In this document: positions 3,182 to 18,351 of the stretch, piece after piece
Layout of the letters: each line of letters begins with the position of its first letter
Position numbering within the stretch: the stretch's first letter is position 1
Origin: Maribacter sp. HTCC2170
GTDB taxonomy: Bacteria; Bacteroidota; Bacteroidia; Flavobacteriales; Flavobacteriaceae
Direction of reading: 5' to 3'
Assembly: GCF_000153165.2 (NCBI RefSeq)
Contig: NC_014472.1
Location: 2,290,001 to 2,354,000, forward strand
DNA: 64,000 nucleotides
Notes under the pieces: model-generated
The model's database searches: none
What the model was told of the DNA's origin: nothing
Seen by the model: the letters and a program-made list of their open reading frames with translations, nothing else
Made by a program: the position numbers and the translations under genes

Positions 3182-4108
3182 CTATTTTTTCATAGCAGAA
3201 TCGTCACATATTAAATCACCCACCACATACTGCATTCCGTCTAGGAAAAACTGCAACAATTCCGGGTTGTCCATACTTTGGGCATTATGGGAAGGTGAGG
3301 AATAAAATACACGTCCCTTGCCATACTTTTTGATCCAAGATACATAAACAACTTTTTCGGAAACTTCTTTCTTCAAACCATCAAGTTGGTCAACTTCCAT
3401 ATACAACAAAGGACGAAAATTGTAATCAAAATAAGCGTTCTTAAAAAAATATGGTTCGTCAAAATGAGTAAAACCATTGCCATTAAAGGCTTGTACGAGG
3501 GGATGGTTGCCATCTACTTCTTTTAGGTGTATTTGTTGTTGTTTAGGGTGATAATCAAAACTGCCTCCGGTCATTCCACTAAAAGCACTAGAATTGTTCT
3601 GTACAGTAATTGCGCCGTGTAGAATCATGAGACCGCCACCCTTTTTAACATAATTCATCATATTCGCCTCATATTCAGGTGCTTTATTCTTGATTTCCAA
3701 AGCCGTTAGCGAAGAATTTTGTCGAAGCAGGTCTGCAAAAAGATCTCGGTCAGGACCACTGGGATTACAATTGTTGAATATTACTGCATCATACTTTTTA
3801 AGATTCTTTTTTTCGAATTGCTCAATATCATACTTAACATGTACTTCAAACACTCCTGTTTTTTTTCCTAGTATTTTTAGCATTTCTGCATTATGTGGAA
3901 TCGTCCAGTGATCGAAACCTGTAGCCTTTGAGAAAACCAATATTTTCTTTTTGGACACGTTTTTTACTGTTAGTGCTGTTGGCGCCAAACGTTCGATTTT
4001 AAGAATCCATTCTTTGGAAATCTCAACTTCTTTAAAACTTTGAGAGTTTGATGTTAAAATCCCAAGAACCAGTGCTAGGGATAGGGCGATTGATCTGATT
4101 TTTTTCAT
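3182..4108 (-). CDS. ThuA-like domain protein, exported
   Basis: 308 residues from the ATG at 4108. That start begins with a clear Sec signal peptide (MKKIRSIALSLALVLGIL) and lies 16 bp after the lacI stop; a longer in-frame start would overlap lacI and spoil the signal. The mature part has the ThuA (trehalose-utilisation, glutamine-amidotransferase-like) pattern: KILVFSKATGFDHWTIP near the start, a central GGGLMILHGAI, then HP.V and a C-terminal YGKGRVFYSSPSHN. ThuA family members work with Gfo/Idh/MocA enzymes in making or processing 3-keto sugars. It is probably co-transcribed with lacI, which ties it to the divergent susCD operon. Family assignment is firm; the substrate is not known. Confidence 0.85.
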   Translation of the reverse strand: MKKIRSIALSLALVLGILTSNSQSFKEVEISKEWILKIERLAPTALTVKNVSKKKILVFSKATGFDHWTIPHNAEMLKILGKKTGVFEVHVKYDIEQFEKKNLKKYDAVIFNNCNPSGPDRDLFADLLRQNSSLTALEIKNKAPEYEANMMNYVKKGGGLMILHGAITVQNNSSAFSGMTGGSFDYHPKQQQIHLKEVDGNHPLVQAFNGNGFTHFDEPYFFKNAYFDYNFRPLLYMEVDQLDGLKKEVSEKVVYVSWIKKYGKGRVFYSSPSHNAQSMDNPELLQFFLDGMQYVVGDLICDDSAMKK

Positions 4109-4124
4109 GGTGTAATTATTTCTT

Positions 4125-5138
4125 TTATTTTGTGGATTCCCGTACAATCAAACGATGTCTAAGACTAATTGAATTTGCAGATTGTAAGTTAATATTCCCA
4201 TTTAAGTGACTAATTATACTTTGCCCTGCTAGAACTCCCATTTCGTATCCTGGATAATCTATGGTACTCAGGGTGGGGGTGACCAATTCAGAAATGGGGT
4301 CATTGTTAAAGCCAATGACCTTTATATCTTCAGGAATCCGATATTTTTCTTTTTGTAACCCTTTAATGCAATGGGCAGCAAATGTGTCACTAGCAACAAA
4401 TACCCCGTCGATAGGTTTTTGTGTACTTTTTATATGGGCAAGAACATCCTCTACTTTTTTTGAATCCAGGTTTATTTCTAATAACTGTTCTTCTTTAAAA
4501 CCCAGGCCATGGGCAAGCAGTGCATTTCTGAATCCTTCAAAACGATCTGCGTAAACACTTCGGTTTAAATTACCACTAATGTGCAATATGTGCTTACACC
4601 CTTGCGTGATTAAATGTTCGGTAGCTTCAAAACCTGCAGATATATTATCAATAACTATTGTTGAGCTATTGGGCATTTCATGAACTCTATCAAAGAATAT
4701 AAGCGGCAATTCGCTTTGTGAGAAAGGGGAGAAGTGGTCATAACCAGTTGTGTCGCGAGCTAGGGAGACCAAAAGGCCATCAACACCACTATCATACAGT
4801 GTTTTTGTATTTAGCCTCTCTTTCTCCATTGATTCTAAAGATTGGCTTATAATCAAATTATAACCTGCCTCATTGGCAACTTTCTCCATACCGGCAAGAA
4901 CGGTAGACATAAAATATGAATTAAGCCGAGGAACAATGACACCAATAGCATTGGATTTTTGTTTACTGAGGTTGACAGCAAATTTATTGACCTTGTAACC
5001 CAGTTCACTTGCTTTCGAAATGACTCTTTGTTTGGTTTTATTACTAATAGCGGGATGGTTATTTAAACTTCTACTAACAGTTCCTGGGGAAACCTGAAGT
5101 TCTTCTGCCAAATCATAAATTGTAACTTTTTTCCCCAT
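4125..5138 (-). CDS. LacI-family transcriptional regulator
   Basis: 337 residues from the ATG at 5138; a GTG at 5156 would add six residues before the conserved MGKKVTIYDLAEEL start. Residues 4-55 are the LacI helix-turn-helix and hinge (VSPGTVSRSLNNHPAISNKT, then LGYKVNKFA). From ~60 onward it is a periplasmic-binding-protein-like sensor (NAIGVIVPRLNSYFMSTVLAGME, FDRVHEMPNSSTIVIDN, VASDTFAAHCIKGL, TPTLSTIDYPGYEMG). Such proteins bind a sugar or sugar phosphate and leave palindromic operators with a central CG. A good operator of this kind lies upstream of the divergent susC, and a second palindrome overlaps its own likely promoter. It is therefore the probable local repressor and is likely autoregulated. 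Confidence 0.93.
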   Translation of the reverse strand: MGKKVTIYDLAEELQVSPGTVSRSLNNHPAISNKTKQRVISKASELGYKVNKFAVNLSKQKSNAIGVIVPRLNSYFMSTVLAGMEKVANEAGYNLIISQSLESMEKERLNTKTLYDSGVDGLLVSLARDTTGYDHFSPFSQSELPLIFFDRVHEMPNSSTIVIDNISAGFEATEHLITQGCKHILHISGNLNRSVYADRFEGFRNALLAHGLGFKEEQLLEINLDSKKVEDVLAHIKSTQKPIDGVFVASDTFAAHCIKGLQKEKYRIPEDIKVIGFNNDPISELVTPTLSTIDYPGYEMGVLAGQSIISHLNGNINLQSANSISLRHRLIVRESTK

Positions 5139-5295
5139 AAGTAAATCTTTCTCCACTATAATTCTAAAGCTAACTACACTGCCTTACACGCAACTTTGCT
5201 ATGGTTTTACTTCTATTTTATTTATCACAAAATCTAAAATATGTGAAGATACGTATTCAGCCAAATCTATTAAGTGAAAATTAGAATTTCTATGC

Positions 5296-5327
5296 CAAAT
5301 ATATATTTATTGCATTGATTAATGCAA
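5296..5327 (-). promoter_or_regulatory. Candidate lacI-thuA promoter
   Basis: On the minus strand there is TTG (5327-5325), a 21-bp spacer and TATATTTG (5303-5296), an exact match to TAnnTTTG. The start would fall near 5290, giving lacI a leader of about 150 nt. The -33 element is inside the palindrome at 5310-5327. Confidence 0.45.
5310..5327 (-). promoter_or_regulatory. Second palindrome, candidate operator for lacI
   Basis: TTGCATTGATTAATGCAA has perfect 7-bp arms around GATT. It uses the same half-sites as the susC operator but in the opposite arrangement and without a central CG, so the fit to LacI proteins is weaker. On the minus strand its outer TTG (5327-5325) is the -33 of a promoter-like pair for lacI. 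Confidence 0.45.
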
Positions 5328-5462
5328 CAATTATACACAATAATTAGTTAATAAACTTCAAAATATGATTCAAAATTAATCATTAATACACATTTTAACG
5401 ATTATTTATTGATTTGTTGAGTTATTCGGTATAACACTTTAAATGGTTGTTGTTAAATATTA

Positions 5463-5478
5463 ATGCAATCGGTTGCAT
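5463..5478 (+). promoter_or_regulatory. Candidate LacI operator upstream of susC
   Basis: The 16-mer ATGCAATCGGTTGCAT is an inverted repeat with one mismatched pair and a central CG, the hallmark of LacI-family operators. It lies 73 bp upstream of the susC start. Its right half contains the TTG (5473-5475) of a possible -33 box, so binding would block polymerase. The operator form is seen directly; the assignment to the adjacent LacI protein is inferred. Confidence 0.7.
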
Positions 5479-5503
5479 AATAAAATATTATATAATACAT
5501 TTA
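5473..5503 (+). promoter_or_regulatory. Candidate susC promoter
   Basis: TTG at 5473-5475, a 20-bp spacer, then TACATTTA at 5496-5503. This matches the Bacteroidota form TTG-N(17-23)-TAnnTTTG except for the last base. It predicts a start near 5510 and a ~40-nt leader before susC. Confidence 0.4.
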
Positions 5504-5550
5504 ACGATAATTACTAATAAAAACCAATTTCAAACTTTAATTACTCATGT

Positions 5551-8500
5551 ATGAAACATTTACTAGGAAAAATTAAAAAACCAGACCTAATGCTTCTTTT
5601 GCTACTGTGTCTGGGAATCTCATCTTCGGCGATCGCTCAAGAAGGCTTTACCGTAACCGGGAACATAGCGGACGAATTTAATGTCCCTTTACCAGGTGCT
5701 TCGATTATTGAGAAAGGAACGACCAACGGCGTGTCAACTGATTTTGATGGTAACTTTTCCATCGAGGTTGCCAACCAAAATTCCACTTTGGTTATAACCT
5801 ATATTGGTTATGCGGAGCAGGAAATTCCCATTAATGGACAATCACAAATCAGTACTTCAATGGAACCCAGCGCTTCAACCTTAGATGAAATTGTGTTGGT
5901 TGGATATGGTGCGGTGAAAAAGAAAGATTTAACAGGAGCGATATCTCAAATCGATGCTGCTGCTGTTTCACACCAATCTACAAATTCGGTCACTGATGTA
6001 TTAAGGTCAAACATGGCTGGTGTTAGTATTGGGTTTTCAACTTCTCCAAAGGGGGTTAGTAATATTCAGATTCGGGGAAATAATAGTTTATCGGCAGGAT
6101 CTAGCCCGTTGATTGTAGTTGATGGGATGATTTATAATGGTGATTTATCAGATATTAGTCCCTCCGATATAGCCAAGTTAGATGTAATGAAAGATGCCAG
6201 TTCGGCGGCAGTATATGGTGCACGAGGCGCAAGTGGTGTAATTTTAATCACTACCAAACGAGGTACTAGTGAAAAGCCGACCATTACAATTAATAGTAGT
6301 GTGGGTGTTGTTACTGATGGGTCTAACGAACGACCTTATAGTGCGGACGGCTATGTTAATTGGCGTTCAGATGTCTTTAAAAGCATCAACCCGCAAAACA
6401 CTATAGATAATCCTGGCAGATATGATGACCCTAATAATCTACCATCTGGGGTTACGTTGGATCAATGGTTGGCCTATGATGGTTCTGCAGGTGACCCTAC
6501 ACGGGCTTGGTTAAATAGATTGGGTTTTCAGGATGTAGAAATTGGGAATTACCTAGAAGGAAATAGCATTGATTGGTATGACAGAATAAATCAGACTGGT
6601 TTACGAACAGATTGGAATACCAGTATCTCTGGTAGAAAGGAAGGTTTAAATTATTACTGGTCCATAGGACGCACGTCTAACGAAGGTATTACTTCGGGTG
6701 AGAAATTTGAAACTTTGCGTTCGCGCTTGAATTTGGATGCCAAAATCACCGATTTTTTAACTGTGGGTATTAATACTCAATTCGCCAAACGAGATGAAGG
6801 GTTTATTCCGGCTAACAGAGGGCAAATTGAAAGATCTTCTCCCTGGGGTTCTGAATTTGATGATGATGGCAATATTAGATTAAGTCCTCAAGACGATAGT
6901 GGTGCTGGAGCTAGCAATGCTTTTTTAGGACAAATGTTTAATGATAGAATAGATTTGGATCATACATTTAATTCAAGGGTTTATGCCAAGGTGAAATTAC
7001 CCTTAGGGTTTTCCTATGAATTAGGGTATACTAATAGATTAGAGTTTCGTGAATACTATAACCATGCTTCGGCTGCAAGTCCTGCCAATGTTGTGGGTTC
7101 GGCCACGAGACAGGCCCTTAAGATCAATGAATGGCAATTAGACAATATTCTACGCTGGGATAAGACGATAGACAAGCATACGTTCAACCTTATGTTTTTG
7201 GTATATGCTGAAAAATATCAGGATCGTTTCACAAGAGCTAGGGCTAATACTTTTGAGCCTAGCGATGCCTTAGGTTTTGGAAGTTTAGAGGCAGGGGCCG
7301 TACAAACAGTAGATAGTGAAGATATTAAAAGTACAGGAGATGCATTTATGACCCGATTGAATTATAACTATGATTCTAGGTATTTGTTGACACTAACCAT
7401 GAGAAGAGATGGCTATTCTGCATTTGGTGCAAATAACAAGAGGGCCTATTTTCCTTCTATAGCTGGAGCCTGGACCATTTCAAATGAAAACTTTTTTAAA
7501 TCAAACTTTATAGATTTCTTAAAACTTAGATTGTCCTATGGCGAGAATGGGAATAGGGATATTGGAAGATTTGCCTACTTATCACGTCTGAACGCTGGGA
7601 AATACCTTAATGTAGATAGTAGTGGAAATGTGATTACCGTACCAACTTTTGATAATACGACTCAAGAGAATGTAGATTTAAGATGGGAACGAACAAAAGC
7701 GGTCAACCTTGGGTTGGATTTTAGTTTAGCCAACGGTATCGTAGAAGGTTCTTTTGAGGCATACCGAAATATCACGGATGACTTAATTGTGACCAGACAA
7801 TTACCAAACATCATTGGCTTTAATAGTGTAACTACGAATTTAGGGGAAATAGAGAACAGCGGGTTTGAATTCACGTTGTCCACCCAAAATTATAATCTTG
7901 AAAATTTTAAATGGAATTCCAGTTTTAACTTTTCATTGAATAGAAATAAGATCAATGAACTCTATGGTGATATGGATGAAAACGGTAATGAATTGGACGA
8001 TGTAACAAACCGCCGGTTCATAGGTGAGGCAACAGATGTCATTTGGGGGAAAGAGATTTTAGGAGTTTGGCAAGAAGATGAAGCAGCTGACGCTGCTGAT
8101 TGGGGTGTTTTTCCTGGAGATTTTAAACTAAGGGATGTAAATAATGACGGTGTGTATACCGACGAAGACAATATATTTCAAGGTCATCGTTCTCCTAGAT
8201 TTAGATGGGGGCTTACCAATTTGTTCACCTTGAAAAAGAATATCGATTTTTCTTTCGAATTATACTCACACTGGGGACAGAAAAGAGTATTCAATGAAGC
8301 GAAAAATAGAAATGGCTTTATAGATCGTACAAACTCTATTCAGACGCCTTATTGGACTTCAGATAATCCTACTAATGATTACGCTAGGTTATTTTCAAGT
8401 GATGGTAGTGCTAGTTTTAATGTTTATCGAGAATCATCTTTTATTCGACTAAGCAATGTGACATTGGCCTACAGATTTCCAAAGCCTATTTTGGAAAAGC

Positions 8501-8661
8501 TCTCTATTCAAAGCCTTCGGGTTTATGCAAATGCTAGAAACTTAGCGGTTTGGGCACCTCATTGGGATTTATACGACCCTGAAGCTCAAGAGTTTGGAGC
8601 CTTTGATTCAAGACGTCCTTCGGCCCAATTTTTTACATTTGGAATTGATTTAAGTTTATAA
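5551..8661 (+). CDS. SusC/RagA-family TonB-linked outer-membrane transporter
   Basis: 1036 residues, the normal size for SusC proteins. A signal peptide ends near AIAQ (~29). A carboxypeptidase-D-like regulatory domain follows (~32-110, GASIIEKGTTNGVSTDFDGN). Next is the TonB-box/plug region starting DEIVLVGYGAVKKKDLTGA (~112) and running to GARGASGVILITTKRG (~235). The rest is a 22-strand beta barrel with many outer-membrane aromatic-ended strands, closing at FFTFGIDLSL. It imports oligosaccharides or modified sugars across the outer membrane with the SusD lipoprotein encoded 16 bp downstream. It is the first gene of a ten-gene operon, and a LacI-type operator precedes it. Family certain; the ligand is inferred only from the neighbours. 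Confidence 0.97.
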   Translation: MKHLLGKIKKPDLMLLLLLCLGISSSAIAQEGFTVTGNIADEFNVPLPGASIIEKGTTNGVSTDFDGNFSIEVANQNSTLVITYIGYAEQEIPINGQSQISTSMEPSASTLDEIVLVGYGAVKKKDLTGAISQIDAAAVSHQSTNSVTDVLRSNMAGVSIGFSTSPKGVSNIQIRGNNSLSAGSSPLIVVDGMIYNGDLSDISPSDIAKLDVMKDASSAAVYGARGASGVILITTKRGTSEKPTITINSSVGVVTDGSNERPYSADGYVNWRSDVFKSINPQNTIDNPGRYDDPNNLPSGVTLDQWLAYDGSAGDPTRAWLNRLGFQDVEIGNYLEGNSIDWYDRINQTGLRTDWNTSISGRKEGLNYYWSIGRTSNEGITSGEKFETLRSRLNLDAKITDFLTVGINTQFAKRDEGFIPANRGQIERSSPWGSEFDDDGNIRLSPQDDSGAGASNAFLGQMFNDRIDLDHTFNSRVYAKVKLPLGFSYELGYTNRLEFREYYNHASAASPANVVGSATRQALKINEWQLDNILRWDKTIDKHTFNLMFLVYAEKYQDRFTRARANTFEPSDALGFGSLEAGAVQTVDSEDIKSTGDAFMTRLNYNYDSRYLLTLTMRRDGYSAFGANNKRAYFPSIAGAWTISNENFFKSNFIDFLKLRLSYGENGNRDIGRFAYLSRLNAGKYLNVDSSGNVITVPTFDNTTQENVDLRWERTKAVNLGLDFSLANGIVEGSFEAYRNITDDLIVTRQLPNIIGFNSVTTNLGEIENSGFEFTLSTQNYNLENFKWNSSFNFSLNRNKINELYGDMDENGNELDDVTNRRFIGEATDVIWGKEILGVWQEDEAADAADWGVFPGDFKLRDVNNDGVYTDEDNIFQGHRSPRFRWGLTNLFTLKKNIDFSFELYSHWGQKRVFNEAKNRNGFIDRTNSIQTPYWTSDNPTNDYARLFSSDGSASFNVYRESSFIRLSNVTLAYRFPKPILEKLSIQSLRVYANARNLAVWAPHWDLYDPEAQEFGAFDSRRPSAQFFTFGIDLSL

Positions 8662-8677
8662 TAAAAAAAATATAGCA

Positions 8678-10531
8678 ATGAAAACAATAGCAAATAAATA
8701 CTCGATATTATTTTTGAGTTTGGTATGCATTTTCGCCACACTATTTACATCTTGTGAGGAAGAATTTTTGGATGCAGAGCCACAATCTTTTTTTACTCCT
8801 GGGAATGCATTGAATACACCCGGTGGATTGAATAGTGTTTTATCCCAGGCAATGGTCAACCTCAGGGATGAATATTATGGTGACGGAGCCCCTATGATAA
8901 CAGAAAATGTATTTTCTGAAGTTTCTGTAGAGGGAACAACCGATAAATCAGGTCCTGCCCAGGATTTAAATTTATTGATCTTGCCAGATGCAAATTTAAA
9001 CAGCGCAAATACAAATAGAATAGGATGGTTTTGGCAAGAGTTTTATAAGGGGATTAAATTTGCCAATACCGTGATCAATAGATTAGATGATGCTGAGTTT
9101 GATAGTGAAGCCCAGAAAAATGATATTTTGGGAAGAGCCCTTTTTCATAGGGCTTATAGATATTATCGTTTGACACAACAATTTGGGGATGTTCCTTTAA
9201 TATTGAGTGAGATTACCGAGCCAAGATTAGATTTTGTGACTACAGAAAGGGAAACCATATTGCGAAAAATGCAGGAAGATTTGAATGCTGCAGTGCCTAT
9301 GGTAAATGAGGTTTCCAACGGAGGGGATGTGAATCAGGACGCTGTCTTGCATTTATTGACTAAAGTAAATCTTGCACTAGGCGATTTTGATGAAGCTGTA
9401 ACATCTTCATCGCGAATCATTAATGGTGGTTTGCATGGATTAATGACAAGTAGATTTGGTATAGACGCTGCAGTAGCAGAGAAAGATGTGACTTGGGATT
9501 TACACCGCGTTGAGAATAAAAGTGTACCTGGAAACACAGAAGGGATAATGATGGTCATTGATCGTGAAGATTATGAGGGTATTGGAGCTACCAGTAGAGG
9601 TACAAGTATCCAAAGACAGGCTGTGCCCCTATGGTGGCGTTTTATAAATACTCCTGATGGTCAAAATGGTATGACTGATAGTCCAAGTGCCGAAATTAAT
9701 CAAGTTACAAGTGTAGGTAGGGGTATTGGTAGAAATCGTGGTACACATTATAGTACTAAAGAAATCTGGAAAGATGCCAATAATGATGAACGACACAAGT
9801 TGGGCAACTGGTTGGATATGGAAGATTTAGTATATAATGCACCTAGCCTTTTAGAATCTGGAAATACATACTATGGTCAAAACTTGGAGTTGTACCTGCC
9901 AGATGGCACTGCTCTTTGTTCAGACACTATTAGAAACTGGTATGGTTGGCCACAATATAAATTCTTTGTTCCAGACCCTAAAAGAGTAAAACCTCAAGGC
10001 GGTCATGGTGATTGGTACGTGTACCGTATCGCCGAGACTTATTTAATGAGAGCAGAAGCCCATTTTTGGAATGATGATAATGATTTGGCTGCGAATGATA
10101 TAAATGCAGTAAGGCTTAGGGCTAATGCGGACCCTATTACTGCTTCGGATGTAAATATAGATTATATCTTAGATGAGCGTGCGCGGGAGTTATATTACGA
10201 GGAAAATAGAAAAACTGAATTGACCCGGATTGCTTATATTTTTGCTAAAACCGGAAGGTCTGCATATAATGGACAAAGTTATAGTTTAGATAATTTTTCA
10301 ACTAAAAATTTCTGGTATGATCGGATTATGGAAGTAACCGATTTCTACAACCTTGGTATTAGAACTATCCATGGCGATGAATATACCATGAGTCCGTACC
10401 ATGTTTTGTGGCCAATACCGGCATCGGCAATTAATGCCAACACTCAGGGAACCATAAACCAAAATGTAGGTTATCCAGGAGCGGAAAATAATATCCCACC
10501 ACTAACAACCATACCTGAACCCGAGGGGTAA
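8678..10531 (+). CDS. SusD/RagB-family surface glycan-binding lipoprotein
   Basis: 617 residues with a lipoprotein signal ending at Cys26 (LFTSCEEEFLDAEPQ, the typical SusD opening). The SusD fold is indicated by the helical TPR-like N-terminal half (LGRALFHRAYRYYRLTQQFGDVPLI) and the conserved C-terminal segments YRIAETYLMRAEAHFW, INAVRLRANA and LDERARELYYEENRKTELTRI, ending with the WPIPASAINAN motif. It caps the SusC transporter encoded just upstream. It is somewhat longer than the ~500-550 residue average, with an inserted region around 290-420. Confidence 0.96.
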   Translation: MKTIANKYSILFLSLVCIFATLFTSCEEEFLDAEPQSFFTPGNALNTPGGLNSVLSQAMVNLRDEYYGDGAPMITENVFSEVSVEGTTDKSGPAQDLNLLILPDANLNSANTNRIGWFWQEFYKGIKFANTVINRLDDAEFDSEAQKNDILGRALFHRAYRYYRLTQQFGDVPLILSEITEPRLDFVTTERETILRKMQEDLNAAVPMVNEVSNGGDVNQDAVLHLLTKVNLALGDFDEAVTSSSRIINGGLHGLMTSRFGIDAAVAEKDVTWDLHRVENKSVPGNTEGIMMVIDREDYEGIGATSRGTSIQRQAVPLWWRFINTPDGQNGMTDSPSAEINQVTSVGRGIGRNRGTHYSTKEIWKDANNDERHKLGNWLDMEDLVYNAPSLLESGNTYYGQNLELYLPDGTALCSDTIRNWYGWPQYKFFVPDPKRVKPQGGHGDWYVYRIAETYLMRAEAHFWNDDNDLAANDINAVRLRANADPITASDVNIDYILDERARELYYEENRKTELTRIAYIFAKTGRSAYNGQSYSLDNFSTKNFWYDRIMEVTDFYNLGIRTIHGDEYTMSPYHVLWPIPASAINANTQGTINQNVGYPGAENNIPPLTTIPEPEG

Positions 10532-10600
10532 GAAATATAGAATAGTTGAGTTTGAGTTAGTTTTTTGTTAATTTCCGTCGTCAAATCCTTATATTGAAAA

Positions 10601-11818
10601 TTGATGAGATATATTTTCCTTTTTTGTTCTTTTATTACCTTGTTATCATGTAAAGCAGAAAAAGAAATATATCGATTTGAAATACAGGATGGCGACGGTT
10701 TTTTACAGTCCAGCCCAATTTTTTTAGATACCGAAATCAGAGGGAACGAAGATTACAGTCAACTCAAGCTTATTCAGAACAATGTTACCATTCCTTTTCA
10801 AGTAGATGAAAATAAGCTGTGGTTTTTACATACTCCTCGAGGTGGCACATACAGCTTCGAGAAAATTGAAAGTGGTGTCAATGATGAATCTGTTCTGAGC
10901 ACGTTCAAAAAAAATGGGAATCTTCAATTAGTTAAGGGTAATGACCCTTTGCTTACCTATCGCTACCAAATGACTTACCCACCAGAAGGGGTAGATACCA
11001 TTTTCAAGAAATCAGGCTATATTCACCCATTGCTATCACCAAAAGGGGATACACTCACCCGCATACAACCTCCGGATCATTTTCACCATTATGGGATTTG
11101 GGGTCCGTGGACCCATACTCAAATAAAGGGTGAACAAGTTGATTTTTGGAATCTAGGGGATGGTAAAGGAACAGTTCTCTTTGAGGAATTCAATAATACC
11201 ACCACAGGAGAGGTGTTTGCAGGATTTAATGCCACACAGGAGCATATTGATTTTATCACTGGATCTTCACCACAAAATGCCCTCGATGAAAAACTTGATG
11301 TTAAACTTTGGGATTTAGGAAGATCGGATCGATATATGTTTGATTATACATCTACTTTCAGTTCTCCTTTGAAAGATGGTATTATTTTCGAAGCATATAG
11401 ATATGGCGGTGGCATTGGCATGCGATTCGATGAACGATGGCATAAAGATAATTGCACGGTATTGACCTCTGAGGGTCATGATCGATTGACAGCGGATGGA
11501 ACCAATGCCAAATGGTGTATTGTAAAAGGAGAATCATCTGATGGGAATGGGACTAATGGTATTTTATTCATGAGCCACCCTGGTAATAGAATGCATCCGG
11601 AGCCAATGCGAATTTGGCCTATTGATGGCAATAACGGTAGGGGGGATATGTTTTTTGAATTTTGCCCTATTCGTCATAAAGAATGGAAAATCGAACCTAA
11701 TAAAGATTATAAACTTACCTATAGAATGGTTGTTTTTGAAGGGGATTTGACCGCTGAAGAAGCAGAGGGTTACTGGAAAATATTTGCAAATAATCCAAAA
11801 TCGGAAATACTGAACTAA
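10601..11818 (+). CDS. DUF6807 (PmoA-like) lipoprotein
   Basis: 405 residues with a lipoprotein signal ending at Cys17 (LLSCKAEKE). The body matches the DUF6807 family, formerly named methane-oxygenase PmoA-like. The characteristic His-rich segment is PPDHFHHYGIWGPWTH, and later come SEGHDRLTADGTNAKW and ILFMSHPGNRMHPEPMRIWP, with a closing YRMVVFEGDLTAEEAEGYW. The old name is misleading, since these proteins occur in glycan loci and have no link to methane oxidation. The conserved His and aromatic residues suggest a sugar-binding or metal-binding pocket in a beta-sandwich; no reaction is established that I know of. It sits between susD and the oxidoreductase genes and is surely in the same transcript. 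Confidence 0.82.
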   Translation: MMRYIFLFCSFITLLSCKAEKEIYRFEIQDGDGFLQSSPIFLDTEIRGNEDYSQLKLIQNNVTIPFQVDENKLWFLHTPRGGTYSFEKIESGVNDESVLSTFKKNGNLQLVKGNDPLLTYRYQMTYPPEGVDTIFKKSGYIHPLLSPKGDTLTRIQPPDHFHHYGIWGPWTHTQIKGEQVDFWNLGDGKGTVLFEEFNNTTTGEVFAGFNATQEHIDFITGSSPQNALDEKLDVKLWDLGRSDRYMFDYTSTFSSPLKDGIIFEAYRYGGGIGMRFDERWHKDNCTVLTSEGHDRLTADGTNAKWCIVKGESSDGNGTNGILFMSHPGNRMHPEPMRIWPIDGNNGRGDMFFEFCPIRHKEWKIEPNKDYKLTYRMVVFEGDLTAEEAEGYWKIFANNPKSEILN

Positions 11819-11839
11819 AGATTTAAATCTAAACAAGAT

Positions 11840-13216
11840 ATGAAAAGAAGAAAATTCATTAATAAAACAGCCTTAGGTACAGCAGCAATGGTAGGATTTC
11901 CTTCTATTGTTCCTGCCCATGTGTTAGGAAAAGATGCGCCCAGTAATAAAATTAATATTGGGCAGATTGGTTGTGGTAGAATAGCCAAAGACCATGATAT
12001 TCGGGATACAATTCAGTTTGATTCAGCTCGGTATGTTGCAGTTTGCGATGTAGACTCAAAAAGGGCAGAGAACGCAAAGGTTCAGGTAGACAAGTTCTAT
12101 AGCGAAAAGACCGGAAAGAAAAAGTATATGGATACGAAGATCTATGGAGATTACCGGGAAATGCTTTTGAATAAGGACATTGATGCGGTAGTAATAAGTA
12201 CCCCCGATCATTGGCATTCACAACCGGCCATGGAAGCTGCTTTAGCTGGTAAGGACATATATCTTCAAAAGCCGACATCACTAACTGTGAAAGAAGGCCA
12301 ACAATTACGTAAGGCGGTACAAGAAAAAGGGGTTATTTTACAAGTTGGTACCCAACAACGTGCTATGCCCCAATTTAGGGTGGCCGCCGAATTGGTAAGA
12401 AATGGTAGAATAGGGAAGCTACATACAGTAAAAATTGGGTTGCCGGGAGATCCTGCTGGGCCCGTAGCACCAGAAATGCCAATACCATCTAATTTAAATT
12501 TTGACATGTGGCTGGGATCTACTCCAGAGGTTCCTTATACGGAGATAGGCGTGCACCCTCAAAACGATTATAGTCGCCCAGGATGGTTAAGACAGCGAAA
12601 TTATGGGGCAGGAATGATTACAGGTTGGGGACAACACCATTATGATTCAGCAGCGTGGGGAATGAATACTGAACTATCTGGCCCTACATCTGTTGAGGCA
12701 TTGGCGGAATTTCCAAAATCAGGTTTGTGGGATGTACACGGAGATTTTTTAGTTAAACATCAATATGATAATGGTATCACGGTTTATACCAGTGGTGGAT
12801 ATACCAACGGAATTAAATATATAGGCGAAGACGGATGGATTTTTGTTTCTCGTGGCTCATATACGGCCTCTGCATCGGATCCAGTGTCAAAAGAAAAAAG
12901 CAGCAAGGCATTGAATGCTTCAGACCCAAAAATTCTGGGATCTGTAATAGGAGCGAACGAAATACATCTTGAAAAAATCAACGATCAACATGGTAACTGG
13001 CTAGATTGTATAAAAAGTCGAAAAGAGCCTATTTCCTCCATTGAAAAGGGGCATAAGGCTTGTGCCATATGTTTGATCAGTGACATAGCCATGCAAGTTT
13101 CTGAAAAACTAGAGTGGGACCCAATAAGCGAAAACTTTACCAACAATGATCTCGCAAACGCCTTACTAAGGAGGCCACAAAGGTATCCTTATGGAACGGA
13201 TTATGTTAAGCGTTGA
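11840..13216 (+). CDS. Gfo/Idh/MocA-family oxidoreductase, Tat-exported
   Basis: 458 residues. The start MKRRKFINKTALGTAAMVGF is a twin-arginine signal, so the enzyme is exported folded with its nucleotide cofactor. The Rossmann domain follows (INIGQIGCGRIAKDHD, then VAVCDVDSKRAE and VVISTPDHWHSQPAMEAALAGKDIYLQKP). The usual EKP motif reads QKP here. The C-terminal alpha/beta domain has the subgroup motif TGWGQHHYDSAAWGM and LDCIKSRKEP near the end. Family members oxidise sugar carbons, for example at C3, often with bound NAD. It is 21 bp downstream of the DUF6807 gene and followed by a second Gfo/Idh/MocA lipoprotein, suggesting a periplasmic redox step on the imported sugar. Family firm, substrate unknown. 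Confidence 0.92.
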   Translation: MKRRKFINKTALGTAAMVGFPSIVPAHVLGKDAPSNKINIGQIGCGRIAKDHDIRDTIQFDSARYVAVCDVDSKRAENAKVQVDKFYSEKTGKKKYMDTKIYGDYREMLLNKDIDAVVISTPDHWHSQPAMEAALAGKDIYLQKPTSLTVKEGQQLRKAVQEKGVILQVGTQQRAMPQFRVAAELVRNGRIGKLHTVKIGLPGDPAGPVAPEMPIPSNLNFDMWLGSTPEVPYTEIGVHPQNDYSRPGWLRQRNYGAGMITGWGQHHYDSAAWGMNTELSGPTSVEALAEFPKSGLWDVHGDFLVKHQYDNGITVYTSGGYTNGIKYIGEDGWIFVSRGSYTASASDPVSKEKSSKALNASDPKILGSVIGANEIHLEKINDQHGNWLDCIKSRKEPISSIEKGHKACAICLISDIAMQVSEKLEWDPISENFTNNDLANALLRRPQRYPYGTDYVKR

Positions 13217-13239
13217 GTATGTATAATTATTAAGGAAAG

Positions 13240-13266
13240 CTCCTTCCTCCTTTTATGGGGAAGGGG
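13240..13266 (+). other. Intercistronic hairpin between the two oxidoreductase genes
   Basis: CTCCTTCC (13240-13247) can pair with GGAAGGGG (13259-13266), eight pairs with one G-T wobble, around an 11-base loop. The T-tract after it is interrupted, so it looks more like an mRNA processing or attenuation hairpin than a strong terminator. Confidence 0.3.
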
Positions 13267-13294
13267 TTTACTATTTTACTAAAACAAATTCATC

Positions 13295-14680
13295 ATGAAA
13301 TATTTGATTTCTTTTTTGTCAGTAATACTCTTAATCGGGTGTAATGAAAAAAAGCAAAAAGTTGAAAAGATTGAAGAATCTAACTCCGAACTTGTGAAAT
13401 TTATGACTTTGGACCCCGGGCATTTTCATGCAGCTTTGGTTCAAAAAACGATGTATTCCCAAGTTGACTCAACCATTCATATTTTTGCCCCAGATGGCCC
13501 AGAAGTAAAGGATTTTTTAAGAAAAATAGACGCATATAATTCAAGGGAAGACCAACCTACTAAATGGGATGTGAATACCCATTTAGGAAATGATTACCTA
13601 AACCAGATGCTTTCAAAAAAGCCAGGTAATGTTATGGTGGTGGCAGGTAAGAACTCTAAAAAAATAGATTATGTCTTAGAAGCTGTTAAAGCAGGATTAA
13701 ATGTTTATGCCGATAAGCCTCTGGTCATTGACCCAAAAGGTTATGAAAAGTTGAAATTGGCATTTAAAATCGCCGAAAAAAATAATGTTTTGATTTATGA
13801 CATCATGACAGAGCGTTTTGAATCAACTACTATGATGCAAAAACTGTTTTCTCAATCATCAAGTGTATTCGGAAAATTGGTTGATGGAACGCTTGAAGAA
13901 CCAGCGATTAGTAAAGTAAGTGTACATCATTTTTTTAAATATGTTTCAGGTCAACCTTTAGTGCGCCCACCGTGGTTTTTTGATGTTAATGAAGAAGGCG
14001 AAGGTATTGTTGATGTGACTACACATTTGGTTGATTTAGTGCAATGGGAAGCTTTTCCTGAACAAATTATTGATACTGCGAATATTGAAATGTTATGGGC
14101 AAAACGATGGCCTACCATATTGACCAAAAAAGAATTTAGCAAAGTAACAAGTTTGGATTCTTACCCTCAGTATTTAGAAAAGGATATTAATCAAGACGCG
14201 TTGCACGTGTATTCTAATGGGGAAATGAACTATCGAATAAATGGTAAGCACGCTAAAGTATCAGTAGTTTGGAACTATCAGGCACCGGAAGGAACTGGGG
14301 ATACCCACTACAGTATAATGCGCGGCACTAAATGTAATTTGATAATTCGCCAGGGAAAAGAAGAAAAATTTAAACCAACATTGTATATTGAGGTTTTTGA
14401 TGGGAATGGTTTTGAAAATGTATTGCAAGATGTTTTATTAGGGAAGGTTAGAGAGCTTTTCCCAGGTACAACCTCAGATAAAATATCAAATACAATGTGG
14501 AAAATTAATATTCCTGAGGAATTTAAAATTGGGCATGAAGAACATTTTGCTCAGGTAACACAGAATTATTTGAATTATTTGGAAAAAAGACAATTACCGG
14601 TTTGGGAAGAACCTAATATGATTTCTAAATATTATACTACTATCGCAGCATATAAAATGGCGAAGAGCAACAAAAATTAA
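13295..14680 (+). CDS. Gfo/Idh/MocA-type oxidoreductase lipoprotein (Oxidoreduct_C type)
   Basis: 461 residues with a lipoprotein signal ending at Cys16 (LLIGCNEKK). The body has the 'putative oxidoreductase C-terminal domain' architecture: a divergent Rossmann-like N-terminal domain opening FMTLDPGHFHAALVQ, VMVVAGKNSKKIDYVLEAVKAGLNVYADKP in place of the usual EKP segment, then a C-terminal domain with VDVTTHLVDLVQWEAFP and GTGDTHYSIMRGTKCNL. The glycine-rich nucleotide motif is not canonical (DPGHFHA), so it may not bind NAD, or may bind it differently. It is probably anchored in the periplasm or on the outer membrane. The neighbouring Tat-exported Gfo/Idh/MocA protein suggests both act on the same sugar. 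Confidence 0.85.
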   Translation: MKYLISFLSVILLIGCNEKKQKVEKIEESNSELVKFMTLDPGHFHAALVQKTMYSQVDSTIHIFAPDGPEVKDFLRKIDAYNSREDQPTKWDVNTHLGNDYLNQMLSKKPGNVMVVAGKNSKKIDYVLEAVKAGLNVYADKPLVIDPKGYEKLKLAFKIAEKNNVLIYDIMTERFESTTMMQKLFSQSSSVFGKLVDGTLEEPAISKVSVHHFFKYVSGQPLVRPPWFFDVNEEGEGIVDVTTHLVDLVQWEAFPEQIIDTANIEMLWAKRWPTILTKKEFSKVTSLDSYPQYLEKDINQDALHVYSNGEMNYRINGKHAKVSVVWNYQAPEGTGDTHYSIMRGTKCNLIIRQGKEEKFKPTLYIEVFDGNGFENVLQDVLLGKVRELFPGTTSDKISNTMWKINIPEEFKIGHEEHFAQVTQNYLNYLEKRQLPVWEEPNMISKYYTTIAAYKMAKSNKN

Positions 14681-14688
14681 ATCTATTT

Positions 14689-15507
14689 ATGAGTCAATTA
14701 TTTAATATAAAAGAAAAATGCTATGTCTTATCCGGTGGTACAGGAACTCTTGGTGGATCTATTGCAAAATACTTGATAGAAAATGGGGCCAAGGTTATTT
14801 TATTAGGCAGGTCTTCGAAAAAACTGGAAGAAAAATGTGCCGAATTAAATGCGATTAATTCCGGGTATGCTACTTCTTTTGTTGTCAATGTATTAAATGA
14901 AGAAGAACTTATCACTGTTAAAAATAAAATAGCCGCTGTGCATCAAAGCTTGGACGGATTGATAAATCTGGCAGGTGGTAATGTTCCCGGTGCTACATTA
15001 ACTGAAAGTCAGACCATTTACGACATCCAGTTAGAGGACACCAAAAATGTTATTGACATAAATCTATATGGAACGCTGATTCCTACAATTGTTTTGAGTG
15101 AGTTGATGTCCAATCAGGGTTATGGATCAATAATAAATATTTCTTCCATGGCTTCAAAACAGTCCATTTCGAGAGTTTTGGGCTATTCTGTTGCAAAAGC
15201 AGGTGTAGATATTTTTACAAAATGGATGGCCAATGAATTGTCCTCTAAATTCGGGGATAATCTAAGGGTCAATGCAATAGCCCCTGGTTTTTTTATTGGC
15301 AATCAGAATCGCCATTTGTTGACTAAAGAAGATGGGTCATATACTTCTAGAGGTGAGAGTATAATAAAAAATACACCAATGGGTCGTTTTGGTGAGGCTT
15401 CTGAATTAAACGGAATGGTACATTATTTACTTAGTGAAGCGTCAAGTTTTGTTACTGGGGAAATATTTGATATTGATGGCGGATTTAGTTCGTTTTCAGG
15501 TGTTTAA
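14689..15507 (+). CDS. SDR-family oxidoreductase, UxuB (D-mannonate oxidoreductase)-like
   Basis: 272 residues of a classical short-chain dehydrogenase. It has a cofactor motif SGGTGTLGG near residue 16, LINLAGGNVPG in place of NNAG, the catalytic SSMAS serine and YSVAK (Tyr166, Lys170), and the closing SSFVTGEIFDIDGGFSSFSGV. The long insert around NLAGGNVPGATLTESQTIYD and the segment APGFFIGNQNRHLLTKEDGS resemble the SDR-type D-mannonate oxidoreductases (fructuronate reductases) found beside hexuronate genes. It has no signal peptide and so acts in the cytoplasm on what the TRAP system imports. It begins 8 bp after the previous gene and is followed by dctP 29 bp later. The SDR family is certain; the uronate specificity is an inference. 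Confidence 0.88.
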   Translation: MSQLFNIKEKCYVLSGGTGTLGGSIAKYLIENGAKVILLGRSSKKLEEKCAELNAINSGYATSFVVNVLNEEELITVKNKIAAVHQSLDGLINLAGGNVPGATLTESQTIYDIQLEDTKNVIDINLYGTLIPTIVLSELMSNQGYGSIINISSMASKQSISRVLGYSVAKAGVDIFTKWMANELSSKFGDNLRVNAIAPGFFIGNQNRHLLTKEDGSYTSRGESIIKNTPMGRFGEASELNGMVHYLLSEASSFVTGEIFDIDGGFSSFSGV

Positions 15508-15536
15508 CGCTAATTTACTTTATAGTTGGTAGAAAT

Positions 15537-16562
15537 ATGAATGCATATTTGTTAAAAAAAGAATATTTAGGAAAGAATAAGAATTGGAAGCGCTTCTTTT
15601 TGAATGGACTATGGGTAATTCTTTGCGTTTTTCTATATTCTTGTTCGGAAATTAAAGACCAGAAAACACTTTTTTTTGCACATTCCCTTCCAATTACGCA
15701 TCCGGTACATAAGGGTATTCTGGATATGCAAAAATACCTGAACGAAAAGTCAGGAGGAAAGCTGCAAATAAAAATTTTCCCGGATGGTCAACTGGGTACC
15801 GAGCGAGAAGTTTTGGAGTTATTGCAAATTGGCAGTGTCGCAATGACCAAGGTCAGCGCGGCATCCATGTCTAATTTTGCACCAGAGTACCAAGTCACAA
15901 GTATACCTTATCTGTTTAGGGACCGTGAACATATGTTCAAGGTACTGGAGGGTGAAGTTGGTAAAGAACTTTTGAACAGGGGAAGTGATTACCTTTTGCG
16001 TGGCCTTTGTTTTTACGATGCAGGGGCACGAAGTTTTTATTCCAAGAAAAAGCCGGTCAAAACCCCCGATGACCTGGATGGAATGAAAATTCGAGTGATG
16101 AACGACCAAATGTCCGTTGATATGGTGAATACTTTGGGAGGTTCTGCCACACCAATGGCTTATGGTGAACTATATACGGCCTTACAACAAAATGTTGTTG
16201 ATGGTGCAGAAAATAATATTCCTTCTTTCGTTACCTCAAACCATTATGAAGTATGTAAGTATTATACTTTTGATGAGCATACCATGGTACCAGATGTTGT
16301 TGTGGTTGGAACAAAATTTTGGAATTTATTGAATGATGAGGAAAAGGAATGGCTACAGGATTCTGCTTTTGAAAGTGTTACCAGACAGAAGATGTACTGG
16401 CAGGAAACGGTAAAGGAAAATATGGAGGTCTTGAAAAAGGCCAATGTTGAATTCTTTTATCCTGATAAGGCACCTTATGCGATTAAATCTTTACCCGTTA
16501 TGGAAAGATTGATGACGAATCCGAAAATGAAAAGATTGATAGAAAAAATAAAAGCGGAATAA
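15537..16562 (+). CDS. dctP: TRAP transporter solute-binding protein (DctP type), lipoprotein
   Basis: 341 residues. Its N-terminus is a positively charged stretch and a lipobox with Cys36 (FLYSCSE), so it is anchored to a membrane, unlike most soluble proteobacterial DctP proteins. The body is typical: TLFFAHSLPITHPVHKG, GKLQIKIFPDGQLGTEREVLE, then DGMKIRVMN with the conserved carboxylate-binding Arg186, and PMAYGELYTALQQNVVDGAENN. The Arg implies an organic-acid ligand such as a uronate. The stop overlaps the dctQ start by one base, so the three transporter genes are translationally coupled. Confidence 0.94.
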   Translation: MNAYLLKKEYLGKNKNWKRFFLNGLWVILCVFLYSCSEIKDQKTLFFAHSLPITHPVHKGILDMQKYLNEKSGGKLQIKIFPDGQLGTEREVLELLQIGSVAMTKVSAASMSNFAPEYQVTSIPYLFRDREHMFKVLEGEVGKELLNRGSDYLLRGLCFYDAGARSFYSKKKPVKTPDDLDGMKIRVMNDQMSVDMVNTLGGSATPMAYGELYTALQQNVVDGAENNIPSFVTSNHYEVCKYYTFDEHTMVPDVVVVGTKFWNLLNDEEKEWLQDSAFESVTRQKMYWQETVKENMEVLKKANVEFFYPDKAPYAIKSLPVMERLMTNPKMKRLIEKIKAE

Positions 16563-17044
16563 TGAAAAAGGCATACACTTTTTTGAACAAAGTTATTGAG
16601 AACTTACTTGTAATAATTTTTGGTTTGTTAGTCATTGATGTCGTTTGGCAAGTGCTTTCAAGATATGTAGTTGGCCAGTCGAGTTCTTTTACCGAAGAAT
16701 TTGCCCGTTTTTCGCTCATATGGCTCACCGTGCTAGGTGCGGCCTATATAAATGGTCAGAAAGAAGGTCATCTGTCGATGGATTTTTTGCTATCTAAACT
16801 ACCTCCGACAAAACAAAAGAAACGACACAAAGTCATACAGGGTTTAATGGCCTTATTTGCATTGATTATTATGGTAATTGGAGGAATTAACTTGGTTTAT
16901 ATTACCTTAAGTCTAGGGCAGATATCTCCAGCACTACACCTTCCTTTAGGATATGTTTATGCAATTGTTCCCATATGTGGTGTGATAATTATTTTCTTTT
17001 CAGCATATCATATAAAATACACGTATAATACTGAATCATTATGA
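16562..17044 (+). CDS. dctQ: TRAP transporter small permease (DctQ type)
   Basis: 160 residues with four predicted membrane helices and the small-permease signature between helices 1 and 3 (VVWQVLSRYVV, FTEEFARFSLIWLTVLGAAY and KEGHLSMDFL). It forms the membrane complex with the DctM permease and uses an ion gradient to import the DctP ligand. The start is overlapped by the dctP stop, and its own stop overlaps the dctM start by four bases (ATGA), so the subunits are made in step. Confidence 0.95.
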   Translation: MKKAYTFLNKVIENLLVIIFGLLVIDVVWQVLSRYVVGQSSSFTEEFARFSLIWLTVLGAAYINGQKEGHLSMDFLLSKLPPTKQKKRHKVIQGLMALFALIIMVIGGINLVYITLSLGQISPALHLPLGYVYAIVPICGVIIIFFSAYHIKYTYNTESL

Positions 17045-18351
17045 GTATAGAGGCAATTAGTATTATCGTTTTATTTATAAGTTTTATTGGTTTGTTGGCC
17101 TATGGAGTGCCCGTTGCTTACTCTATAGGGATTTCTACCACCTTGACCCTTTTGTTGAATATGGTTTTTATGCCAGCGACTACCACGGTTATGCAACGAA
17201 TGACTACGGGGATAGATAATTTTGCCCTATTGGCAATTCCATTTTTTATACTTGCTGGGGAATTAATGAATAGGGGCGGTATCGCGAAACGCTTAATTGA
17301 ATTTGCTAAATCCTTGATTGGTAGTTTACCAGGAGGCCTTGCTTACGTTAATATTATTGCGGCCATGCTTTTTGGGGCTATTTCAGGTTCTGCCATAGCT
17401 GCAGCATCAGCGATTGGAAGTACTTTGACCGATAAGATGGAAAAAGAGGGTTACCCCAGAGAATTTAGTGCTGCGGTGAATATTAGTTCTTCAACTACAG
17501 GTCTGCTAATTCCACCAAGTAATGTGCTTATCATTTTTGCCTTGGCAAGTGGCGGCACCGCTTCGGTTGCTGCCTTGTTTATTGCAGGCTATATTCCCGG
17601 TATATTGGTAGGCTTAGCAATCATGACCGTTGTGTACGTATATGCAAAACAAAAAAACCTTCCCAGGGCCGAACGTGTGCGTCTGAAAAAATTGTTCCTT
17701 GATTTTAAAAATGCCTTTCTGAGTCTTACGCTGTTGGTCATTGTGGTAGGAGGAATTGTTGCTGGAATTTTTACTGCGACTGAAGCCGCAGCCATTGCTG
17801 TTGTTTATGCAATGTTACTTGGCTTTCTGAACAAGGAATTAAAATTCTCGGATTTTAAGCCTGTTTTACTTAAGAGCGCTAGAACTACGGCCATAGTTAT
17901 GTTTTTAATAGCTACCTCAATGGCGATGTCGTGGTTATTCTCTTTTGAAGGTATCCCGCAAATGTTGACTAGTGTGTTGGTAGATTCGGTCAAAAACCCT
18001 TTCATAGTATTACTTCTAATAAACATTACTTTGCTTATTGTCGGAACTTTTATGGATATGACCCCTGCAGTTCTCATTTTTACACCTATTTTTTTACCGG
18101 TGACAATGGCCATGGGTATGCATCCCGTTCAATTTGGAATGATCATAGTACTTAATTTATGTATAGGGGTTTGTACTCCACCCGTAGGAACCTTGTTGTT
18201 TGTTGGAAGCGGTGTGGCAAAAGTACCGGTAACAAAGGTAATCAAGCCACTATTACCATTGTTGGGCGCCATGGTGGCCATTCTGTTTTTGATTACTTAT
18301 TTCTCTGAAATCTCACTTTGGTTACCTCGTTTTTTCGGATTGATAGAGTAA
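17041..18351 (+). CDS. dctM: TRAP transporter large permease (DctM type)
   Basis: 436 residues, the normal length for DctM, with about 12 hydrophobic segments. Family motifs visible are LLAIPFFILAGELMNRGGIAKRL, GAISGSAIAAASAIGSTL, GLLIPPSNVLIIFALASGG and LNLCIGVCTPPVGTLLFVG. It carries the ion-coupled translocation path in the inner membrane. It is the last gene of the susC-dctM operon; only 12 bp separate its stop from the stop of the convergent gene, and no terminator hairpin is evident. Confidence 0.96.
   Translation: MSIEAISIIVLFISFIGLLAYGVPVAYSIGISTTLTLLLNMVFMPATTTVMQRMTTGIDNFALLAIPFFILAGELMNRGGIAKRLIEFAKSLIGSLPGGLAYVNIIAAMLFGAISGSAIAAASAIGSTLTDKMEKEGYPREFSAAVNISSSTTGLLIPPSNVLIIFALASGGTASVAALFIAGYIPGILVGLAIMTVVYVYAKQKNLPRAERVRLKKLFLDFKNAFLSLTLLVIVVGGIVAGIFTATEAAAIAVVYAMLLGFLNKELKFSDFKPVLLKSARTTAIVMFLIATSMAMSWLFSFEGIPQMLTSVLVDSVKNPFIVLLLINITLLIVGTFMDMTPAVLIFTPIFLPVTMAMGMHPVQFGMIIVLNLCIGVCTPPVGTLLFVGSGVAKVPVTKVIKPLLPLLGAMVAILFLITYFSEISLWLPRFFGLIE

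Follow-up and report, generated by a model that had tools for sequence, protein, structure and literature searches.

A predicted LacI-family operator at the divergent susC promoter of Maribacter sp. HTCC2170 and conserved direct half-sites beside lacI

In the lac system of Escherichia coli, an operator lies over the promoter of the sugar operon and beside the repressor gene, and the same arrangement is found at the locus described here; unlike lac, this locus has no tetramerisation tail in its repressor and no second matching operator, and the spacing of the two palindromes that had been proposed as its operators, sites A and B, is unphased. CcpA, a global regulator, is a dimer, as is PurR, and it is at the central CG that the hinge leucine inserts; the LacI-family regulator of this locus aligns with CcpA over its full length, its hinge leucine falling on that of CcpA, but in contrast to CcpA it has a single predicted site in its own genome. 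In the parts of Ravcheev et al. 2014 (PMC4052901) drawn on here, 1251 of 1303 LacI-family regulators have an even palindrome as their site, and for 1173 of the 1303 the site is centred on CG. With the local regulons covered in those parts (PMC4052901), the present locus shares an even inverted repeat with a central CG beside the gene of a local regulator, whereas on their lacI side the loci of this group carry half-sites in direct orientation around a -7-like box and no second palindrome. Bacteroides UxuR, UxaR, KdgR and UxmR, as treated in the portions of PMC3878776 and PMC4052901 used here, belong to the same phylum and protein family, and uronate genes adjoin orthologs of the present regulator; in contrast to the UxuR-type loci, the operon in question carries susCD and TRAP transporter genes and no uxuA, and the likeness noted here is one of phylum, family and neighbours. 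Within the literature searched, an operator of this kind was not found described for Flavobacteriaceae, nor was an account of this group of sugar regulators.

The window, a stretch of 64,000 nucleotides, corresponds to positions 2290001–2354000 of the genome of Maribacter sp. HTCC2170, which consists of one 3.87-Mb contig and contains six LacI-family genes. One of them, lacI (4125–5138, minus strand), encodes a 337-aa regulator with a LacI helix-turn-helix and a periplasmic-binding-like, sugar-binding domain (PF00356, PF13377) and is followed on the 3′ side, on the same strand, by a ThuA-like gene (3182–4108). Between the lacI start at 5138 and the divergent susC start at 5551 lies an intergenic region of 412 bp with 23% G+C. 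On the plus strand, the susC-like TonB-dependent receptor gene (5551–8661) is followed by genes for a susD-like lipoprotein (8678–10531), a DUF6807 protein (10604–11818), two Gfo/Idh/MocA oxidoreductases, one with a PF19051 C-terminus (11840–13216) and one with a PF16490 C-terminus (13295–14680), a short-chain dehydrogenase (14689–15507) and the TRAP transporter components dctP, dctQ and dctM (15537–18351); since the gaps are short, the run from susC to the TRAP genes is predicted to form one transcript. The single same-strand run (5551–18351) thus combines susCD and TRAP transporter genes with those for a DUF6807 protein and two Gfo/Idh oxidoreductases. In two genomes of the same genus, lacI is 86–87% identical to that of the window; at the nearest orthologs (L063 and L064) the divergent gene is a DUF6807 gene, against susC in the window, and in the two nearest relatives susCD is missing at the corresponding place.

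For comparison, 89 non-redundant upstream regions of at least 250 bp were assembled from orthologs with a LacI identity of at least 45%, leaving out six duplicate loci (confirmed as identical) and loci below 45% identity. The close set comprises 29 loci with at least 59% identity, the window counted in, and the distant set 60 loci with 45–60% identity. Operators were scored as the best match over 14 positions within 600 bp upstream, with dinucleotide shuffles as background; L120, which has no upstream DNA, was dropped from the operator and -7 box counts. Leaders were compared by local alignment, a first MAFFT alignment being poor in the leader outside site A.

Site A, or O1 (ATGCAATCGGTTGCAT, 5463–5478), is an even inverted repeat with a central CG that is kept 5′ of orthologous regulators, at a promoter, and, relative to the predicted susC start, it spans roughly -45 to -30. 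Operator scores of at least 12/14 were found in 76 of the 89 orthologous loci, compared with 0.2 expected from dinucleotide shuffles, and in 28 of the 29 close loci (window included) the score was at least 11/14 with a central CG, the exception being L046 with a score of 10. The core around site A comprises 25 identical bases in L063 and 23 of 24 in L064, despite the differing adjacent gene. In the HTCC2170 genome, RYGCAAYCGRTTGCRY with at most one mismatch occurs in a single place, which is site A; the 13 exact matches in 12 relatives include 12 at orthologous lacI genes, and one-mismatch sites elsewhere number six, the same number as for a reversed-pattern control. Because site A is conserved in orthologs, keeps a fixed distance to the -7 box and is unique in the genome, its reading as a real, single and local operator of the susC-side promoter is well supported by comparison of sequences, and so is repression of the operon at this predicted site; site A is ordinary in kind, but its support is unusually strong. 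A sister genome (G009, contig C121, 2899–2914) has an operator with one mismatch some 1.2 kb away from a fragment of uxuA, which may be either another site of the regulon or a chance match.

The promoter geometry on this side is regular. In the window, the TTG of site A (5473–5475) is followed by 20 bp and then by the -7 box TACATTTA (5496–5503, plus strand), so that the two parts of a Bacteroidetes primary-sigma promoter, a TAnnTTTG -7 box and a TTG on its 5′ side, are present, with five of six letters matched in the box; with the G of the -7 box numbered -5, as in the part of PMC6847099 consulted, +1 is predicted near 5508. A perfect TAnnTTTG after the operator TTG was found in 26 of the 29 close loci, with a spacer of 19 bp in 13 and of 20 bp in 13, and none was found at any other spacer among the 5–44 bp tested in these loci; the remaining three are the window (TACATTTA), L046 (CATATTTG) and L123 (no box). 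An earlier note on this DNA had taken the palindrome at 5463–5478 to contain the -33 TTG of a susC promoter, and this reading is strongly supported, as operator and fixed -7 box distance are both conserved among orthologs and the palindrome itself recurs in 28 of the 29 close loci (window included). According to the sections of PMC6847099 used, the -33 motif is much less apparent in Flavobacterium johnsoniae, and therefore the conserved TTG may serve the repressor instead of the polymerase. A lacI promoter using site A on the opposite strand was ruled out, a perfect box being present in one of 29 close loci. Among the 26 perfect susC-side boxes of the orthologs, G stands at the third place (TAG-) in 21 and only at the fourth in two, places (-10 and -9) at which G is virtually absent in F. 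johnsoniae in the same sections of PMC6847099. In 58 distant loci, the -7 region 3′ of the distal operator approximates AAnTTTA as compared with TAnnTTTG, its last letter being A in 38 and G in 10 of the 58.

The second palindrome, site B (TTGCATTGATTAATGCAA, 5310–5327), is imperfect. On the minus strand, its TTG at 5327–5325 is followed by 21 bp and then by TATATTTG at 5303–5296, and on re-reading, the letters, coordinates and spacers that had been given for both palindromes and their boxes were right. The half-sites of B point outwards (TTGCAT..ATGCAA) around an AT centre; when the 412-bp intergenic region was shuffled 1000 times by dinucleotides, 274 shuffles (27%) held an 18-mer with at least eight of nine pairs; no 16-mer over site B is among the eight top operator scores of this region; and a search of orthologous loci found palindrome B in none of the orthologs compared. 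Orientation, centre, chance frequency and lack of conservation rule B out as an operator, and the proposal of a LacI operator on a lacI -33 TTG is not supported in that form: the palindrome is everted, has no CG and has no ortholog counterpart, and the lacI start would fall inside it. Both arms of B are exact site A half-sites, and TTGCAT-N0-12-ATGCAA was seen in six of 1000 shuffles, a coincidence that was spotted post hoc. The earlier-proposed lacI -7 box TATATTTG (5296–5303, minus strand), one of three perfect TAnnTTTG boxes on the lacI strand in the 420 bp 5′ of lacI, where such boxes evidently arise with ease, is not conserved in orthologs; it is a better match than the conserved box at 5328–5335 and may be used as an alternative start, which would lie near 5291. 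Palindrome B is judged to be incidental, except that its right arm forms part of the lacI-side element at 5323–5344.

This element (TGCAACAATTATACACAATAAT, 5323–5344) came from local alignment of the window leader with ortholog leaders, in which, besides site A, the stretch at about 5318–5345 repeatedly matched the stretch directly before lacI. Its ortholog form TGCAACAATATTACGCAACAAA consists of GCAACAA twice, 13 bp apart and in one direction, and the window matches it at 17 of 22 positions, a score reached in none of 200 shuffles; the template was picked from orthologs and not from the window. Scores of at least 16/22 were found in 19 of the 29 close loci, in none of 31 other LacI genes and in none of 58 distant orthologs (L127 and L124 dropped). 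The HTCC2170 genome has exactly one match with at most two mismatches, at 5324–5343. Across nine genomes, which except for the window's own and G401 had been chosen because their lacI carries the element, nine of 12 such matches lie at orthologous lacI genes, and eight genomes match, all but G401.

On the lacI strand, the element reads TTGCG-TAnnWTTG-TTGC, with a TTGC-type half-site on either side of a -7-like box in most loci. In the window this box is TATAATTG (5328–5335, minus strand), which would put the lacI +1 near 5323, inside site B; in 27 of the 29 loci, a box with five (23 loci) or six (four loci) of six letters stands at the one aligned place. A conserved TTG 17–23 bp 5′ of this box was not found (8 of 29 loci). 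The half-site letter of the element (TGCAA or CGCAA) tracks that of site A (4,1 / 2,12; Fisher p 0.017, kinship uncorrected) in the 19 of 29 loci that were usable, ten without a clean GCAA being left out and the window not being among the 19, and this covariation hints that one protein reads both sites. The conserved half-sites at the lacI promoter stand in direct orientation and do not form an inverted operator. Autoregulation through this element, not through palindrome B, is plausible, since the element carries the half-site of site A and a second operator, mostly close to lacI, is present in 39 of the 60 distant loci; it is uncertain because LacI proteins are described, in the text of PMC4052901 used here, as binding inverted and not direct half-sites. 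The claim that one protein represses both the sugar operon and itself is well supported for the operon, through site A, and not supported for self-repression through B, which may instead act through the lacI-side element. The window also has extra lacI leader DNA (5139–5309), with the element 185 nt from lacI against a median of 20 nt; in a comparison with nine genomes, the leader at 5139–5310 gave only its self-match in the HTCC2170 genome and one weak 37-bp match in G011.

Between the centres of the element and of site A, the median distance is 134 bp, with 15 of 23 loci within 2 bp of it, a range of 124–149 bp and 137 bp in the window; the count covers the 23 loci with an element score of at least 15/22, the six others (128, 129, 136, 137, 148 and 153 bp) being left out. 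The distance from lacI to the element, by comparison, varies from 7 to 185, and since the window is the extreme of this range, its extra ~165 bp lie outside the held segment; L046 behaves likewise, with the element at +126 and 135 bp to site A. The held distance could reflect shared ancestry with few insertions and no functional constraint, to which we assign somewhat less than an even chance. Several loci are close kin and only eight of 23 are off by more than 2 bp; moreover, a protein search for new independent orthologs found none, a scan of 395 genomes from the order for the composite pattern returned only three lacI loci, all known before, in two genomes, and two genus searches gave one new locus, a near relative, with a spacing of 134 bp. 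Two things speak against common descent as the whole reason: the intervening DNA is no more alike than shuffled sequence (median similarity 0.626 against 0.613, 253 pairs), and both the window and L046 have their larger insertions outside the held segment. Because kinship is uncorrected and an independent ortholog set is lacking, a functional constraint on the ~134-bp distance is put at a little better than even. A dimeric LacI might occupy two unlike sites 134–137 bp apart, an inverted operator on the target promoter and direct half-sites around the -7 box of its own gene, in a joint complex that perhaps includes another DNA-bending protein and, with no need of a tetramer, controls the two divergent promoters together; we regard such a complex as improbable.

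A circuit in which LacI binds both A and palindrome B, each on a -33 TTG, and perhaps loops the DNA as a tetramer has in its favour that its letters and spacers are right, that TATATTTG matches the -7 box perfectly, that the site A half-site recurs in each arm of B (six in 1000 shuffles), and that distant orthologs do have two operators. The everted, CG-less B is missing in orthologs, however, and palindromes of its grade arise in 27% of shuffles. The centres of A and B are indeed 152 bp apart, as had been stated, but at 10.5 bp per turn this is 14.48 turns, which places them on opposite helix faces and therefore argues against simple looping. Among solved structures, CcpA chains are nearest to the LacI protein, which aligns with them from residue 4 through its final residue, 337; the alignment ends where CcpA ends, so that no space remains for a tetramer helix at the C-terminus and the suggested LacI tetramer is not supported. 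With one operator in the region, no tetramerisation segment and 14.5 turns between A and B, the marks of a lac-type looping pair are missing, tetramer looping is not supported, and the two-palindrome circuit as a whole is very unlikely. Alternatively, LacI may act on the sus operon alone through site A, the lacI-side element being the site of another regulator or a conserved core promoter. LacI operators do not look like direct repeats, only the close group has the element, and in the portions of PMC3878776 used, direct-repeat motifs are given in Bacteroides for SusR-like and AraC-like HTCS regulators, with longer spacing (67–77 and 21 bp). Yet the half-site is common to the element and site A and weakly covaries, the distance between the two is held, and at several distant orthologs a lacI -7 box adjoins a true operator; this alternative is possible but the less likely course.

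Among the 60 distant loci, by the thresholds applied here, at least two operators lie within 600 bp in 39, one in 19 and none in two, and the second operator is usually near lacI. At Pontibacter and Rufibacter loci, for instance, the near operator abuts a TATATTTG- or TACTTTG-like lacI box. A two-operator circuit like that of the earlier note therefore exists in the group, but the family to which the window belongs appears to have the direct half-site element in place of the second operator. Phasing of operator pairs, taken from 33 distant-ortholog pairs that were listed by hand and include many close kin, gave R 0.42 (p 0.014), with 10.5 bp not singled out. One locus of the comparison, L119 from Flavobacterium sp. 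SUN052, has a lacI of 53% identity and a GH67-like neighbour and resembles Cytophagales-type loci rather than those of Flavobacteriaceae, which suggests transfer or a misassigned contig.

The neighbours of the orthologs hint at use of uronate or glucuronoxylan. The sister genome G011 encodes UxuA (mannonate dehydratase) 4.5 kb from lacI on the operator side, and G222 does so at 5.6 kb. Seven proteins of divergent genes in distant relatives were domain-scanned, and such genes encode UxuA (L078), a GH67 alpha-glucuronidase (L072), GH10 (L074), GH43 (L093) and GH3 (L109) proteins; the longest ORF of L135 is, by its letters, presumably a glucuronate isomerase (UxaC). The operon in the window is without uxuA, and the best uxuA of the genome is about 400 kb away, without this operator. 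Because uronate genes adjoin the regulator in relatives and LacI-type uronate regulators have been proposed in Bacteroides (table 2 of PMC3878776, in the part used), a uronate-type inducer is suggested as the best guess.

In the mechanism that we prefer and hold to be probable, the local LacI-family repressor would bind one operator, site A (5463–5478), over the -33 region of the divergent promoter, and the bound repressor would block RNA polymerase until a sugar-type inducer, probably derived from uronate, arrives; the controlled run would be susC-susD-DUF6807-Gfo/Idh-SDR-TRAP. The core promoter of lacI would be the element at 5323–5344, with direct half-sites flanking the -7-like box; there the repressor would also damp its own gene, and palindrome B would be a by-product of this element. 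The comparisons given above show that site A is conserved and unique in the genome, that it keeps a fixed distance to the -7 box, that the lacI-side element is conserved and that the spacing of the two is held; binding, repression, the inducer and autoregulation we infer from them.

This reading supplies a widespread group of sugar regulators in Bacteroidota, linked to uronate or glucuronoxylan use, with a specific and testable predicted operator and promoter, and the comparative support for a TTG-N19/20-TAnnTTTG promoter geometry is unusually clean. It also points to a lineage in which direct half-sites, at a held distance from site A, appear to have taken the place of a second operator beside lacI; this lacI-side element and its spacing from site A are what most merits bench work.
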